A stretch of DNA of 64,000 bases from the NCBI GenBank assembly GCA_005893305.1, contig VBOZ01000010.1, forward strand, positions 110,119-174,118, written 5' to 3'. Shown piece by piece: positions 19,254 to 48,379 of this stretch (its first letter is position 1; every line of letters begins with the position of its first letter). A program made the translations under genes and the position numbers. The notes below the pieces were generated by a model. It saw nothing but the letters and a program-made list of their open reading frames with translations, ran no database searches and was not told where the DNA came from. This DNA is from Candidatus Eisenbacteria bacterium. GTDB taxonomy: Bacteria; Eisenbacteria; RBG-16-71-46; SZUA-252.

Positions 19254-20560
19254 GCTTTACGGAAGGCGTCTCGCTTCGCGGGCGCCTCGAGGACCTGTAC
19301 CGCTTCGAGCGGAGCGGCATGCGCCCGGGCCTGACCGGGATCGAGCGCCTGCTCGAAAAGGCGGGGCGTCCGGATCGCGCGTTCCCATCGGTCCTGATCG
19401 CGGGCACAAACGGGAAGGGATCGACCGCCGCGACCCTCGCATCGATCCTCCGCGCCGCGGGCCTTCGGACCGGACTCTACACCTCCCCGCACCTGGTCCG
19501 GTTCAACGAGCGGATCCGGGTCGACGGCCGTGAGATCTCGGACGCGGAGCTGGATGATCTCCTGACGCGCTGGTGGCCCCGCTTCGAGGAGGAGCATCCC
19601 TCCTTCTTCGAGGCCGCCACCGCGATCGGATTCGACCACTTCGCCGCGTCGAGCCTCGACGCCGCGGTCGTCGAGGTCGGGCTGGGCGGACGCCTCGACG
19701 CGACCAACGTGCTCGAGCCCATGGTCTCCGTCATCACGACGATCTCGAGCGATCACGCCGAGATCCTGGGTCACACGCTGCGCCGGATCGCGATCGAGAA
19801 GGCGGGCATCGTGAAGGAGGGAGGGCGGCTCGTGCTCGGGGTCAGGCCGGGCGAGGCGAGAAACGCCATCCTCGAGATCGCGACCGCCCGCGGCGCGACG
19901 GTCGAGCTCCTCGGGCGCGAGGCCCGGTTTCGCGTGCTCCGCGTCGGGGAGGACGGAACCGAGTTTCACCTCAAGACATCCTCGTTCTCGGGGGCCGTGA
20001 CGATCCCGCTCCACGGCGCGCACCAGGCGCGGAACGCCGCCCTGGCGGCCCTCGCGGCCGAGACGGTCCTGTCGGGGCGGCCCGGCGGTGAAATCGCGCG
20101 CGCGATCGAGGCGGGGATCGTCGACACGCGGTGGCCGGCTCGGGTCGAATGGATCGAGGGGGATCCGCCGATACTCGTGGACGTGGCCCACAACGTCGAG
20201 GGCGCGATCGCGCTTGGAGTGACCGTCGCCGCTCTGCTTCCCGGCCGGCCGATCGCCGTCGTGGCGGCCTTTTCGCGCGACAAGGCGCACGACAAGATCT
20301 TGAAGGCGCTGGGGCGGGTCGCGGGGCGATTCTTCCTCACCCAGTTCGCGGGCGAGCGCGCCACGCCCGCGGTCGATCTCCTTCACGCGGCGCCCGCGCG
20401 CCACCTCGATTGCGAGGCCGTGCCGGACGTTCGCGAAGCGATCTCGCGCGCGAAGTCGTGGGCCCGATCGCGAAACGGCGCGGTCCTCGTCACCGGCTCC
20501 TTCTTCCTCGTCGGCGAGGCGCTCCCGATCCTCGATCGCGAAGTCCCGCGTGCGATCTAG
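19250..20560 (+). CDS. folC: Folylpolyglutamate synthase / dihydrofolate synthase
   Basis: A 436-residue Mur-ligase-family enzyme that adds glutamate to folates and possibly to dihydropteroate. It shows the P-loop GTNGKGSTAATLASI, TSPHLVRFNERIR, EVGLGGRLDATNV, and the C-terminal DVAHNVEGA motif. It starts at ATG 19250, overlapping the accD stop (ATGA), the usual accD-folC arrangement. Its last 11 bases overlap the lptD start. Confidence 0.95.
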   Translation: MSFTEGVSLRGRLEDLYRFERSGMRPGLTGIERLLEKAGRPDRAFPSVLIAGTNGKGSTAATLASILRAAGLRTGLYTSPHLVRFNERIRVDGREISDAELDDLLTRWWPRFEEEHPSFFEAATAIGFDHFAASSLDAAVVEVGLGGRLDATNVLEPMVSVITTISSDHAEILGHTLRRIAIEKAGIVKEGGRLVLGVRPGEARNAILEIATARGATVELLGREARFRVLRVGEDGTEFHLKTSSFSGAVTIPLHGAHQARNAALAALAAETVLSGRPGGEIARAIEAGIVDTRWPARVEWIEGDPPILVDVAHNVEGAIALGVTVAALLPGRPIAVVAAFSRDKAHDKILKALGRVAGRFFLTQFAGERATPAVDLLHAAPARHLDCEAVPDVREAISRAKSWARSRNGAVLVTGSFFLVGEALPILDREVPRAI

Positions 20561-23500
20561 CTTCCTCCTCGCGGCCGCGCTCTGCGCCGCCGCCACCTTT
20601 GCCTTTCCACCCCGAGGCGCAGCCGCGCCGCCCGACACCACGTCGGTCGAGCGGAGCGACCGCGAGCCCTACCACCTGAGCGCCGACCGGCTCGAGGGAT
20701 CCGCCGCCGCGGGGGAGAACGTCTATACGGCGAGGCGCGCGAAGGTCGTCCACGGCACCACCACCGTCACAGGCGACTCCGCGCTGATCTATCGGATCCG
20801 CGAGATGGTTCTGTTTCGCGGGAACGTGAGGATCGTGGACGGCGGGACGCGAATGTGGGGAAACGAGGCGTCGTATGAGCGGAAGACGCGCCTCGCGACC
20901 CTGCGGGGAGACGTCCGGATCGAGGAGTCGGGGGCGAAGATCACGGGGCGCGAGGCGCGCTTCTACCGGGCCGAGAATCGCTCGGTGATCACCGGCGACG
21001 CGAGGCTCGAGGACTCCACCCGGGTCGTGACGGCCGACCGCATCGAATACGACCGGAACAATGACATCGTCACCGCGATCGGGAACGTGGACGCGTACGA
21101 TCGGGCCGAGAGCACGCGCGTCCGCGCCGAACGGGTCCGATACGACCGGCGAAAGGACTACGCCTGGGCCGAGAACGAGCCGGTCTTGGAGCTCGAGGAG
21201 CGGGACGGGAAGAAGACCGAGGTCCGCGGCACGACCCTCGAGTTCGACACCGCGAAGCGGCGCGTCTATGCGATCGGCGACGTGCGCATCCACCGGCAGG
21301 ATCTACGGGCGACCTCCGAGCGGGCGGAGTTCGACCAGACCGATCGCCGCGCCATCCTGGTCGGGAATCCCAAGGCCTGGGATGCCGAGGGCGCGGCGCG
21401 CGCCGACACGATCGAGATCGGCTTTTCCGAGCACCGCCTGGAGTCCCTCCACCTGCGATCCAACGCGATCGTCGAATACGAGGCGAAGCCGGACTCAGGC
21501 CGCGGGGAGAGGAACATCGCCAACGGCGACACGATCACCGTTTTCTTCGACGGCGAGGAGGCGAAGGAGGCGGTCATCGTCGGCAGCGCGAAGAGCCAGT
21601 ACTGGCCCAGCGCCGCCGACAGCGTCGAAGGCGGCCGGAACGTATCGGAGGGGGACACGATCCACGTCTTCTTCGAGAAGGGCCGCCCTGCTCGCGCGGT
21701 CGTCCTTGGCCGGAGCCATGGGCTCTACTACCTCGCGGCCGAGGGCGATACGAGCCAGGCCGCGTCGCGCGAGGTCGTTCGATACAGCGGGACCGAGATC
21801 GATTACGACGTGAAGAAGGGAAGCGTCGACGTCCTGAGCTCGGCGGACGTGGTCTACAAGGAGATGCACTTGACCGCGAACAAGATCGCGTTCGACTCGA
21901 AAACCAACAAGATGAGAGCGGAAGGGGACCCGGTTCTGGTCGACGGGAAGGACCGGATCACCGGCGACACGATGACCTACGACCTGAACTCGCGCCAGGG
22001 GACCGTCTACGAGGGGCGGACCACGTACGACCGCGGATTCATCTACGGGGAGCGCGTGCGCAAGGTCTCCGAGAACGTGCTCGACGTCGTGAACGGCACC
22101 TACTCGACGTGCGATCTGGAGGAAACGCACTACCACTTCCAGGCCCACAAGATGAAGGTCTATCTCCAAGACAAGGTGATCGCGCGCCCGGTCGTCTTCT
22201 ACATCAAGCGGATCCCGGTGCTCGCGCTCCCGTTCTACGTCTTTCCGATCAAGCCGGGACGCCATTCGGGGTTCCAGCTTCCACAGGTGGAGTTCGGGTC
22301 GTCAAGCAGGGGGGGGAAATTCGTCCGGAACATGGGCTACTACTGGGCGATCAACGACTACATGGACGCCACGGGCTGGTTCGACTACTACCAGGGGTCG
22401 AGCTGGGTGACGCACGGCCAGTACCGCTACCACAAGCGCTACGGGTACCAGGGGCAGATCAACTCGTCGTACGAGAACCAATTCACCGAGAAGGGGACGA
22501 ATCGCTGGGACCTCATCGGCACCCACTACCAGACGCTCGGCACGAACTTCGCCCTGACCGCCCAGGCCAACCTGACGAACTCCAGCACATTTCAACGGGA
22601 TCCCAATCTGGGCAACAACGTCCTGACCCGCATCCAGCGGAACCTCCGCTCGAATCTCTCGCTCCAGAAAGGCTGGAGCGGCGGCTCCATCAATGCGGGG
22701 CTACTCCAGACCCAGGATCTCGACGCCGGGCCCGGCGGACTCAAGATCCAGCAGCAGCTCCCCTCGTTGACGTACCGGATCAATTCCCGTCCCATCGGGC
22801 ATCTTGCTCGGGGACAGGAGCCGGCGCACCTCCCCCTGCTCGCGAGCACGACCTACAGCTTCAGCACCACGGGACTCTACGAGCGGAAGCAGTACGAGAC
22901 CTTCACCCGGTACGACACGCTCGGGACCACCGTGGACAGCTCCAAGGTGGACTCGCTCGACGCCCGCGGCGCGACACGGTACGACTTCGGGCTCGCCGAC
23001 GTGCGCACGCTGCTCGGATTCCTCCACGTGGGGCCTCGATTCTCGTACAGCGGCGTCTACTACAGCCGCGATCAGTCCGGGGCGCGAAATCAGCTTGGCG
23101 GGGTCTGGAGCGCGGGGGTGGGCGTCAACACCGCCATCTACGGGACGTTTCGCACGTCGATCGGACCGCTCCGCGCGGTCCGGCACGTCATCACGCCCTC
23201 CGTCTCCCTCGGCTACCAACCGAAGAACAATAGCCTCCTCTTCCGCGATTCGGCCGGGGTGCTGCGGCAGCGCTTCGACGGCGTGAGCGGGATCAATCTC
23301 TTCGGCGGGGAGGCGAAGCGGGTCGATTTCGGGCTCTCGAACGATTTCCACGCCAAGTGGGGGGATCCGACCCATCCCACGGTTCTGAACAACCTCATAC
23401 AGCTCAACACGAGGGGGAGCTACAACCTCCTCGCGAAGAATGTCGGAGCCAAGCCGCTCTCCGACCTCTCCACAAGCCTGCGCCTGCACCCGATCCGGCG

Positions 23501-24056
23501 CAGCGATTTCGATTTCAACTTCGTCCACAACCCCTACGACCGCCGGCTGCTCCAGTTCAGCGCCTCGACCGGAATCTCGTTCCAGGGGCAGAGCAAGTAT
23601 GCCGAGGCAGCGGATGAATTTTCCGACGAGCCGGGCGCGGATGCGATACGGGCGCCGACGCCGCTCTCGCCGCAGGGCCTCTCGTCCACGTCGCTCCCGT
23701 GGGTCGTCGCGGCCTCGATCTCCTATAGCGGCTCCCGCGCGCGCAGGGCGGGAGGCGGGTACTTAACGTGGGGATCGAGCGCGAGCCTGAACGGCACGGC
23801 CGGGATCAATCTTTCCAAGAACTGGCGCTTCGACTACCAGTGGCAGTTCGACGTGAAGCAGGGACAAATGGTCTCGCAGTTTTTCAGCGTCAAGCGCGAG
23901 CTCCACTGCTGGGAGATGCAGTTCACGCGGAGCATCTCGGGTACCGTCAGCGACGATTACTACTTCAAGATCAACGTCAAGAGTCTCCCGGAGGTCTACT
24001 ACGAAAGAGGTTCGAAGGGGCTGCGCGGCTTCGGTGGCGTCTCGGACCTCTACTAG
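20550..24056 (+). CDS. lptD: LPS-assembly outer-membrane protein LptD
   Basis: An 1168-residue protein with a signal peptide (about 1-27, cleavage near PRGAAA). A long N-terminal region of repeated OstA/LptA-like strands (about 35-500) carries LPS across the periplasm. The LptD barrel then follows (FYIKRIPVLALPFYVFPIK; then the Tyr/Asn-rich beta-barrel). The Cys in STCDLEETHYHF and the one in ELHCWEMQF match the conserved inter-domain disulfide partners. The N-terminal part is longer than in E. coli (784 residues in total there), suggesting extra jelly-roll repeats. It starts at GTG 20550 inside folC. lptE is not evident nearby. Confidence 0.93.
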   Translation: MRSSFLLAAALCAAATFAFPPRGAAAPPDTTSVERSDREPYHLSADRLEGSAAAGENVYTARRAKVVHGTTTVTGDSALIYRIREMVLFRGNVRIVDGGTRMWGNEASYERKTRLATLRGDVRIEESGAKITGREARFYRAENRSVITGDARLEDSTRVVTADRIEYDRNNDIVTAIGNVDAYDRAESTRVRAERVRYDRRKDYAWAENEPVLELEERDGKKTEVRGTTLEFDTAKRRVYAIGDVRIHRQDLRATSERAEFDQTDRRAILVGNPKAWDAEGAARADTIEIGFSEHRLESLHLRSNAIVEYEAKPDSGRGERNIANGDTITVFFDGEEAKEAVIVGSAKSQYWPSAADSVEGGRNVSEGDTIHVFFEKGRPARAVVLGRSHGLYYLAAEGDTSQAASREVVRYSGTEIDYDVKKGSVDVLSSADVVYKEMHLTANKIAFDSKTNKMRAEGDPVLVDGKDRITGDTMTYDLNSRQGTVYEGRTTYDRGFIYGERVRKVSENVLDVVNGTYSTCDLEETHYHFQAHKMKVYLQDKVIARPVVFYIKRIPVLALPFYVFPIKPGRHSGFQLPQVEFGSSSRGGKFVRNMGYYWAINDYMDATGWFDYYQGSSWVTHGQYRYHKRYGYQGQINSSYENQFTEKGTNRWDLIGTHYQTLGTNFALTAQANLTNSSTFQRDPNLGNNVLTRIQRNLRSNLSLQKGWSGGSINAGLLQTQDLDAGPGGLKIQQQLPSLTYRINSRPIGHLARGQEPAHLPLLASTTYSFSTTGLYERKQYETFTRYDTLGTTVDSSKVDSLDARGATRYDFGLADVRTLLGFLHVGPRFSYSGVYYSRDQSGARNQLGGVWSAGVGVNTAIYGTFRTSIGPLRAVRHVITPSVSLGYQPKNNSLLFRDSAGVLRQRFDGVSGINLFGGEAKRVDFGLSNDFHAKWGDPTHPTVLNNLIQLNTRGSYNLLAKNVGAKPLSDLSTSLRLHPIRRSDFDFNFVHNPYDRRLLQFSASTGISFQGQSKYAEAADEFSDEPGADAIRAPTPLSPQGLSSTSLPWVVAASISYSGSRARRAGGGYLTWGSSASLNGTAGINLSKNWRFDYQWQFDVKQGQMVSQFFSVKRELHCWEMQFTRSISGTVSDDYYFKINVKSLPEVYYERGSKGLRGFGGVSDLY

Positions 24057-24580: not shown

Positions 24581-25924
24581 TTGGAACTGCAACGGCTTCG
24601 CTACCTGCTCCTTCTCCTTGTTCTACTTGGACTTATGGCTGCGCCCGTGCTCCAGGGCAAAACGCCGCCTTGCGACATCCTCATCCAGAGCACGACGGAT
24701 GCGAACGCAGAGCTGGCTCCCTGTGGCTGACACGCGCACCCGCTTGGCGGGCTCGCCCGGAGGGCGAGCCAACTCAAAGTAGGCAGGCTGAAGTTCCCCA
24801 CGGGATTCGCCGTGGACGCCGGGGACTATTTCGGCGTCGGCGGGGAGCAGGACTCCCTGAAGAGCGGCTATATGGTCCACGCCATGGACGTCCTCGGCTA
24901 TGACGTGGTGACCCTGGGCGAGCGCGAGTTCAACTTCGGCCAGGCATTCCTCCTCGACTGCTTCAAGAAGACGAAGATCGACGTCGTCTCCGCGAACATC
25001 GTCTACGCCGACACCAAGAAGCCGTTCGTGAAGCCGTACGTCATCCGCAGGGTCTGCTCGACCCGCATCGCCTTCACCGGTCTGATCGGGAAGGACATGC
25101 GCATCCGCCAGCTCCCGAGCGAGCGGGGCGTCGAGATCCTCGATCCGTTCGAGACGGCGAAGAAGCTGATCCCGGAGCTCCGCGGCAAGGCGGACATCGT
25201 CGTGGTCCTCTCGCACCTGGGGCTCACCGACGCGCAAAAGCTGGCGCTCGACGTGCCGGGCATCGACGTCATGGTCTTCGGCCATCAGGCAGGGCTCTTC
25301 CGGCAGATCGTGAAGACGCAGGAGGTCGTGACCTTGAGGGGCGGGGAGCGCGGCCAGTACATCCCGCAGCTCCACATGGTCGTGCAGGACGGCAAGGTTT
25401 CCTCGTTCGACGGCGACGTGGTCGTCCTCGACGACAAGGTACCGGCGGATGACGCGATGAACCACGCGGTCGACGAATTCAGCGACAAGCTGAACGAGCG
25501 CTTCAACGCCGCGAACAAGGCCACGGCGGACCAGGCGCAGCAGAGGACCCTGGCGCAGGTGTCGGGCGACCGCTATCTGGGCGAGGCCACCTGCCGCCGG
25601 TGCCACGAGGTGGAATACCAGATGTACACGAGCCAGAAGCACGCGCACGCGTTCCAGACCCTGATCGACAATCAGCGCGACTCGACGCCGGAATGTCTCC
25701 CGTGCCACGTCGTGGGCATGGGGCAGCTGGGCGGCTTCGTCTCGAGGCAGGGAACCCCGGAGCTCGTCAACGTGCAGTGCGAGAACTGTCACGGCATGGG
25801 GAGCCGCCACCCGGAGCACGGAGCGATCGTCGGCCCCGATGTATGCATCACCTGCCACACCGCCTCGCAGAGCCCGAATTTCCAATATGAAGAGATGGTG
25901 GCCAAGATCGTTCACTGGAAGTAG
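24581..25924 (+). CDS. Metallophosphatase/tetraheme cytochrome fusion, candidate selenoprotein (in-frame UGA at codon 50)
   Basis: A roughly 447-residue exported protein if TGA 24728-24730 is read through. The N-terminus is a signal sequence (RYLLLLLVLLGLMAAPV). Next comes PPCDILIQSTTDANAELAPCG, then the TGA, then HAHPLGGLARRASQL. This family normally has PCGC followed by GGLARR, so UGA replaces the second Cys. A 9-bp hairpin follows at the right distance. A 5'-nucleotidase-like phosphoesterase domain continues (DAGDYFG, VVVLSHLG, VMVFGHQAG). The last 110 residues have four heme motifs: CRRCH, CLPCH, CENCH, CITCH. An in-frame stop at 24578 bounds the start; TTG 24581 or CTG 24587 is likely. 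Without readthrough only the part from 24812 would have an ATG, and it would lose its signal peptide. Confidence 0.85.
24728..24770 (+). promoter_or_regulatory. UGA codon and candidate bacterial SECIS hairpin
   Basis: TGA at 24728-24730 is in frame with coding sequence on both sides. A perfect 9-bp stem pairs GGCTCGCCC (24750-24758) with GGGCGAGCC (24762-24770), and the 3-base apical loop GGA starts with G. The loop lies about 29 bases after the UGA, inside the 16-37 base window of the known bacterial SECIS model. Confidence 0.7.
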
Positions 25925-46130: not shown

Positions 46131-46315
46131 CGCCGCGGATAGAACCCGCGGCGAGTGTGGGAGGGCCTCCCATTGGAGGCCCGGGAAGTCGGTGCGAATC
46201 CGACACGGCCCCGCCACTGTGAGCGGTGACAAGAGCGGCCTGAAGCCACTGGGGAAACCCGGGAAGGCGCCGCTTGAGGATGACCCGCGAGTCAGGAGAC
46301 CGACCCACCCTCCGC
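46131..46315 (+). promoter_or_regulatory. Cobalamin (B12) riboswitch
   Basis: The region carries the conserved cobalamin-aptamer elements in order: a GCCGCGG/CCGCGGC hairpin (46132-46152), GGGAAGTCGGTGCGAATCC, GCCCCGCCACTGTGA, GAAGCCACTGG, GGGAAGGCG, and the B12 box AGTCAGGAGACC at 46290-46301. It lies 30-odd bases before a TonB-dependent receptor start, close enough to control translation. B12 is expected to shut the receptor off. Confidence 0.95.
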
Positions 46316-46345
46316 CTAGACACCCATCCTTCGTGAGGGAGGACC

Positions 46346-48379
46346 ATGGGACCTCTGCGTCCGCTTCTCCGGGTTTCGTTCGTCGTACTCGCCACCGCAT
46401 CGTTCGCCGCCGCATTCCATTCGCGCGTTCTTGCCGCCGGGGCCGAGGCGGGCGCTTCGCCCGCCGACTCGATGGTCGAGCCGCGCTACCACCTCGACCC
46501 GGTGATCGTGACCGGCGAACGGCTGCCGGTCCCCCTCGGGCGCGTGCCGCTGGACGTGACGGTGGTCGGCCGTGACCGCCTGGACACCCACCGCCAATTC
46601 CTCCTCGCCGACGCGCTCCGCGAGGTGCCAGCCCTCGACGTCCAGAGATCGGGCAGCCTCGGGAAGCTGACCGACGCCCGTCTCCGGGGCGCCGACCCGC
46701 GCCACACGCTCGTTCTCTTCGACGGAATCCCGCTCAACGGGCCTTGGCTCGGGACATTCGATTTCGCGGATCTCGTGGACCCGGGCGTGGCGCGGGTCGA
46801 GGTGCTGGGCGGACCGGCCTCGTCGCTCTACGGCTCCGGCGCCGTCGGGGGCGTGATCCAAATGCTGAGCCAAGGCGCCGTGGAAGCCAATGGGATCGAC
46901 GCGGGACGCCCCGAGGGCCGCGGCAGGCTCCGCGCCTTCGCCGAATACGGCGAGAACGTCACGCTGCGCCAGGGGATTCAATGGAACGGGACGGTCGGCC
47001 GCGCGCCGCTGGGGCTCGCCGCGACGCGGCTCAGCTCGGACGGCGTCGGTCCGCGCGACGGATACACGGGGCTGAACGGGACCTTCCACGCGGAGCTCCC
47101 GGTCGGTGGCCGGGACCACCTCCACGTGAGCGGACTCGCCACGAGCGGGAAGAAGGAGCTCCCCTACGATTTCTTCTTTGATTACACCGATCCCACGCTC
47201 TCGCCCTTCGGATCGAACAAGGAGATCCGCGACCCCAACAATGACGAGAAGGACCGTCTCTTCGCGGGGATCGCGACGTGGCGGCACACGCTGGACCGCT
47301 CGCTGGACGTGGAGGCGGAGGTGTCCGGCCTGACCGGGCGGATTCAGAACCAGAATGAGCCGAACGGGGGCGGAGCCACGGATTTCCAGAACACCGATCT
47401 CAAGAACACGCGCGGCATCGGATCTCTGCGCGCTCGGGTCAACGCCGGATCCTCGTTCCGTGCCGTCGCCGGCGCCGACTATCGCGGGGATCAGGTGAAA
47501 CGGAACGATGCGTTCGATTTCGGCGGCTTCACGGACACCACGCGAGTGGACAAGGGGATCCACGACCGCTCGCTCTTCGCCCAGGCGCATTGGGAGATCG
47601 CGGACCGCTTCCTCGCGGACACGGGAATCCGTCTCGACGACCATTCGCGCTACGGATCCTACGGTCTCCCGCGCCTCGCGATCGGGCTTTTGGTGCCTGA
47701 GGCCGGGCTGAAGATTCGGGCAGGATACGGCCGCGCGTTCACCGCGCCGACCCTGACCGATCTCTACTATCCCGGGTACAGCGACTCGTCGCTCGCCCCG
47801 GAGCGCTCGACCACGTTGGAAGCGGGCATCGTGGGCCTTTGGCTCGACGGCAGGGTGGAGGGACGAGTTTCCTATCACCACACGAACTTCGTCGATCTCA
47901 TCCAGGGGGTTCTTCAGCCCAGCTTCGCGTTCCTGCCCGAGAACGTCGGGAAGGCGATGATCGAGGGAGAGGAGTACGCGCTTCGTTTCGTCCCTCACCG
48001 CCGCGTTGAGCTGTCCGGATTCGCCGCGCACCTGGTCGCGAACAACACCGACACGGGCGCGCCGCTCGCGAAGCGTCCCGCCTGGCGGTTTGGGATCTCG
48101 GGGCGGGCGAGCGTCCACCGGGATCTCGCACTGACCGGCTCGTGGCGGTGGGTCGATTCGGTCATCGATCCGTTCAACTTCATCGACGCGCGCGGCCGCG
48201 TGCTCGACGGAGACACACCGGGCTACGCCGCGCTCGATCTCGGCGCGCTCGTGACGCTGCGGCGCTGGGCGGAATTGAACGCGCGCGTCTCGAACGTGCT
48301 CGACCGGGACTATTCCGAGGTGAAGGGATTCCCCGCGCGGGGCCGGGTGGCGACGATCGGCGTGACGTTCACGCGCTAG
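46346..48379 (+). CDS. btuB: TonB-dependent outer-membrane receptor, BtuB-like (cobalamin)
   Basis: A 677-residue outer-membrane transporter. A signal peptide (to about 30) and a TonB box near PVIVTGERLP precede the plug domain (ADALREVPALDVQ; LFDGIPLNG; GPASSLYGSGAVGGVIQML). The 22-stranded barrel then ends with the loop pattern NVLDRDYSEVKGFPARGR and a terminal beta strand (ATIGVTFTR). Substrate assignment to cobalamin or another corrinoid rests on the riboswitch immediately upstream. No btuF/CD genes are adjacent. GGGAGG lies just upstream of ATG 46346. Confidence 0.93.
   Translation: MGPLRPLLRVSFVVLATASFAAAFHSRVLAAGAEAGASPADSMVEPRYHLDPVIVTGERLPVPLGRVPLDVTVVGRDRLDTHRQFLLADALREVPALDVQRSGSLGKLTDARLRGADPRHTLVLFDGIPLNGPWLGTFDFADLVDPGVARVEVLGGPASSLYGSGAVGGVIQMLSQGAVEANGIDAGRPEGRGRLRAFAEYGENVTLRQGIQWNGTVGRAPLGLAATRLSSDGVGPRDGYTGLNGTFHAELPVGGRDHLHVSGLATSGKKELPYDFFFDYTDPTLSPFGSNKEIRDPNNDEKDRLFAGIATWRHTLDRSLDVEAEVSGLTGRIQNQNEPNGGGATDFQNTDLKNTRGIGSLRARVNAGSSFRAVAGADYRGDQVKRNDAFDFGGFTDTTRVDKGIHDRSLFAQAHWEIADRFLADTGIRLDDHSRYGSYGLPRLAIGLLVPEAGLKIRAGYGRAFTAPTLTDLYYPGYSDSSLAPERSTTLEAGIVGLWLDGRVEGRVSYHHTNFVDLIQGVLQPSFAFLPENVGKAMIEGEEYALRFVPHRRVELSGFAAHLVANNTDTGAPLAKRPAWRFGISGRASVHRDLALTGSWRWVDSVIDPFNFIDARGRVLDGDTPGYAALDLGALVTLRRWAELNARVSNVLDRDYSEVKGFPARGRVATIGVTFTR

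Follow-up and report, generated by a model that had tools for sequence, protein, structure and literature searches.

The window (a 64,000-nucleotide stretch of contig VBOZ01000010.1 from a Candidatus Eisenbacteria genome) contains on its forward strand a reading frame of 447 codons, the sole interruption of which is an in-frame TGA at codon 50 (positions 24728–24730). The frame extends from a TTG codon at 24581 (the exact start is uncertain) to a TAG stop at 25922–25924. Its product has a hydrophobic N-terminal segment, the sequence PCG-U-HAHPLGGLARRA and a domain resembling 5'-nucleotidases; its C-terminal domain contains four CXXCH motifs, at residues 338, 372, 400 and 422. This layout agrees with the first-pass annotation, which had described a signal peptide and PCG before the TGA and the same downstream residues after it within one continuous frame, and had labelled the protein 'tetraheme'. 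Programs that call open reading frames break the gene at the UGA and return a 370-codon frame beginning at GTG 24812. The features of the locus are as follows:

24581–25924, forward strand: UshA-like (seleno)protein gene, 447 codons with a single internal UGA, matching NF041198
24581–24660, forward strand: probable signal peptide, hydrophobic LRYLLLLLVLLGLMAAPVLQG (inspection, and an AlphaFold helix at residues 3–24)
24722–24730, forward strand: C-G-U motif, TGT GGC TGA, read as Cys48-Gly49-Sec50
24728–24730, forward strand: UGA, predicted selenocysteine (residue 50); relatives carry TGA or Cys codons only
24750–24770, forward strand: SECIS-like hairpin of 9 bp with loop GGA at 24759–24761, kept in UGA members and with a covarying pair 5
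25592–25606, forward strand: heme-binding motif 1, CRRCH
25694–25708, forward strand: heme-binding motif 2, CLPCH
25778–25792, forward strand: heme-binding motif 3, CENCH
25844–25858, forward strand: heme-binding motif 4, CITCH

The gene upstream (20550–24056, forward strand) appears to encode a lipopolysaccharide export protein of 1168 amino acids, a fusion of the LptA/LptC/LptD type.

With the UGA read through, the product matches the family model NF041198 ('UshA-like (seleno)protein', UshA_like_PCGU) at 280.5 bits, against a curated cut-off of 275; a close relative scores 284.9 bits. The model takes in the C554 heme part as well as the esterase-like one (its positions 344–519, representing the C-terminal heme region, match 135506–136009 on contig C10), and the feature that marks membership, PCG-(U/C) followed by GGLARR, is present. 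In comparison with NF041198 and the COG0737 UshA-like proteins, which share PCG-U, the GGLARR after it, and a UshA-like domain joined to a C-terminal C554-like region, nothing essential differs, the score being barely over the cut-off. A further family of UshA-like selenoproteins, NF049981 ('UshA-like (seleno)protein family 2'), is a weak match at 43 bits (far under its cut-off of 140), and its motif is given as CxxU rather than CxU (PMC13188914).

Selenoproteins of this kind have been catalogued repeatedly. The 2008 Global Ocean Sampling survey reported 76 selenoproteins under 'COG0737, UshA-like' with a CxU motif (PMC2398784), a 2022 review lists a UshA-like CxU selenoprotein (PMC9312934), and a 2026 review lists the UshA-like selenoprotein together with NF041198 (PMC13188914). 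The first-pass annotation had known of no described selenoprotein in this family; given the NF041198 score above the cut-off and a published record reaching back to at least 2008, that statement was wrong, and the claim of a new family fails with it. The gene is a sound and expected addition to a known family. A literature search found no paper that names selenoproteins in Eisenbacteria. The outcome is the removal of a false claim of novelty, and the gain of a well-supported extra member from a lineage akin to Candidatus Eisenbacteria.

Every one of the 47 phylum genomes searched yielded family matches, many of them with exactly one internal TGA, and in those phylum loci that were read this TGA always lay at PCG-U. 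We also examined a separate collection of 80 loci from named genomes, which had been found through their heme motifs and not chosen by C-x-(U/C). The codon at the selenocysteine (Sec) column was TGA in 41 of these loci, TGC or TGT in 39, and nothing else in any (TGA plus Cys loci, 36 + 29 by pattern, with one false pattern match discounted, and 5 + 10 by reading the rest). The alignment of homologues that had been proposed as a check therefore shows the same column to be occupied exclusively by UGA or Cys. TGA at the same codon, in a frame without other stops, extends to relatives recorded as Krumholzibacteria, Myxococcales, Deltaproteobacteria, Acidobacteria and Thermoplasmata.

Several individual loci deserve mention. 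Adjoining copies of the gene occur in phylum genomes (loci L045, L046 and L053), one with UGA and the next with TGC at the same codon; the hairpin is decayed in the Cys copy. The source genome itself contains a relative of 978 amino acids (contig C9:114500–117800, reverse strand) with Cys at the Sec position (NCGCKVNQSGGVARRA), a tetraheme C-terminus like that encoded in the window, and a lengthy N-terminal portion of unrelated sequence; other genomes of the phylum contain comparable long forms. We considered the 978-residue protein as a competing copy of the window gene and rejected it, because it carries Cys (NCGC) and its N-terminal portion is unrelated. A genome of the same genus (G045) that at first seemed to lack the UGA was discarded, since its contig stops just past the codon and is uninformative on this point.

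The source genome (2.75 Mb in 39 contigs, 96% complete) was searched for the genes of selenocysteine insertion, and all were present: SelA (493 bits), SelB (357 bits), SelD (382 bits) and tRNA-Sec (68.6 bits, anticodon UCA), the last of which adjoins selD on contig C8. Across the phylum, SelB was not matched (at an E-value of 1e-70) in 10 of 47 genomes, most of which are incomplete. Two genomes, G022 (92% complete) and G023 (96% complete), have a UGA copy of the family gene yet no SelB match, which may reflect gaps in their assemblies.

The hairpin downstream of the UGA is formed by GGCTCGCCC (24750–24758) and GGGCGAGCC (24762–24770), which pair perfectly over 9 bp around a GGA loop. The perfect stem and the G-first, three-base loop had been described correctly by the first-pass annotation; its spacing of 29 bases holds for the distance from the UGA to the loop, and the stem itself begins 20 bases after the UGA. 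On its own, such a hairpin is not rare in sequence this GC-rich. Its folding z-score (–1.3 to –2.0) is only mildly unusual, and synonymous recoding of the window sequence produced an equally long stem in about 2% of draws (1–14% when the UGA members of the family were recoded in the same way). The energy of a hairpin in a single sequence was not decisive, and we therefore turned to comparison across relatives, on which the weight of the hairpin as evidence depends.

The hairpin proved to be conserved: every distinct UGA sequence from the phylum (n = 17) keeps a stem of 7–9 bp with loop GG(A/C). The arginine codons within the hairpin are CGG and [AC]GG in all 17. Pair 5 of the stem, where both sides are synonymous third codon positions, is C-G in nine sequences, G-C in seven and U-G in one; because of those synonymous positions, its covariation is not explained by constraint on the protein. 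In Cys homologues (n = 4) the stem is broken or shifted, with a mean stem run of 4.0 versus 7.6 in the UGA rows. Among more distant UGA relatives, the stem often falls outside this register.

Together, the complete Sec machinery, the exchange of UGA with Cys alone, and the conserved SECIS-like hairpin strongly support selenocysteine at 24728–24730, as the first-pass annotation had predicted, and on these comparisons the gene is very probably a genuine Sec-encoding member of the known UshA-like PCGU family (NF041198, COG0737, CxU). SelB bound to the hairpin would then direct insertion of Sec at codon 50. The split of the gene by ORF callers, with its 370-codon downstream frame, is what one would expect if the TGA were instead a true stop followed by a re-start, or a misread TGC or TGT, in a pseudogene or a faulty assembly. 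Such a history is very improbable, since many independent genomes of the phylum, as well as relatives recorded under other taxa, share a TGA at this codon in a frame otherwise free of stops. The same conservation across genomes leads us to reject an alternative code. Were the UGA translated as another amino acid (through a change of code to Trp or Gly) or passed by general readthrough, relatives with Cys alone at this column would be hard to account for, as would the complete machinery, including a tRNA-Sec with anticodon UCA, and the SECIS-like hairpin downstream; we give this explanation almost no credence.

A Foldseek search returned 5'-nucleotidases as the relatives of the encoded protein (E-value 1.5e-24; mean pLDDT of the AlphaFold model, 84.6), and UshA and CD73 are its best relatives of solved structure. 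In UshA and CD73, the two metals of the active site are bound by DxH, GD, GNH, H and GH motifs. When these positions were carried onto the window protein by alignment with 5'-nucleotidases, they did not read as those of an active enzyme of this class: DxH is D-A-N, GNHE is GERE, and the other ligands vary in relatives. The window protein retains D40, D79, D82, H212 and H235. Across 26 relatives, position 82 is G in 12, H212 is replaced by Q in 12, and H235 by R in 13; the rows of this tally were picked by the C-x-(U/C) motif, and the invariance of the motif there and in alignment A1 is a product of that selection. In contrast to the poorly conserved di-metal ligands, C-x-(U/C) is present in all 80 of the named-genome loci, and this universality was not selected, since those loci were found via heme motifs. 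The term 'metallophosphatase' in the first-pass annotation is thus apt for the fold and should not be taken to imply an activity, because the family has not conserved the catalytic metal ligands. Some metal binding by the window protein is possible, given its retention of D82, H212 and H235.

The window protein further differs from UshA and CD73 in that a heme domain replaces their C-terminal substrate domain. This domain matches cytochrome C554 (PF13435) at 55.5 bits against a cut-off of 20.8, and resembles cytochrome c554 in a fused form with four CXXCH motifs. The thiosulfohydrolase SoxB (TIGR04486) belongs to the same fold family, with the window protein scoring 85 bits, under the cut-off of 550; SoxB is not known to have a CGU motif or a fused tetraheme region.

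These features suggest an exported protein with a 5'-nucleotidase-like fold and a largely degenerate di-metal site, in which Cys48-Gly49-Sec50 would sit in what was once the active-site loop, beside a tetraheme domain of the C554 type. Its role would most likely be extracytoplasmic redox chemistry, for example with a compound of sulfur or another chalcogen as substrate (SoxB being a relative), with electrons passed on through the hemes. We regard a redox role for the window protein as having roughly an even chance of being correct. The wider proposal, that PCGU proteins are exported selenoenzymes with a Cys-Gly-Sec redox site in a decayed di-metal phosphoesterase pocket, wired to a fused tetraheme domain and probably acting on a chalcogen substrate, is tentative, and we hold it with slightly less than even confidence. 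The protein might instead contain a real Sec and still be an active metallophosphoesterase, Cys48 and Sec50 standing in place of metal ligands rather than forming a redox centre, which would accord with its fold and with the five ligand residues it has kept. We consider this unlikely: relatives lose the ligands at position 82, H212 and H235, GNHE reads as a GERE-like sequence, and fusion to a tetraheme domain suggests electron transfer. An exported, heme-coupled redox enzyme is favoured over a phosphatase by the universal C-x-(U/C), the degenerate metal ligands and the fused tetraheme domain, and the decay of the metal site beside that motif and the hemes offers a testable pointer to redox chemistry.

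Elsewhere in the window, a cobalamin riboswitch (Rfam RF00174, 107 bits; 46140–46322, forward strand) lies directly upstream of a TonB-dependent receptor gene (46346–48379, forward strand), the product of which resembles BtuB, the receptor for vitamin B12 (172 bits to TIGR01779, under the cut-off of 599.7). This pairing of riboswitch and BtuB-like receptor is an ordinary arrangement.
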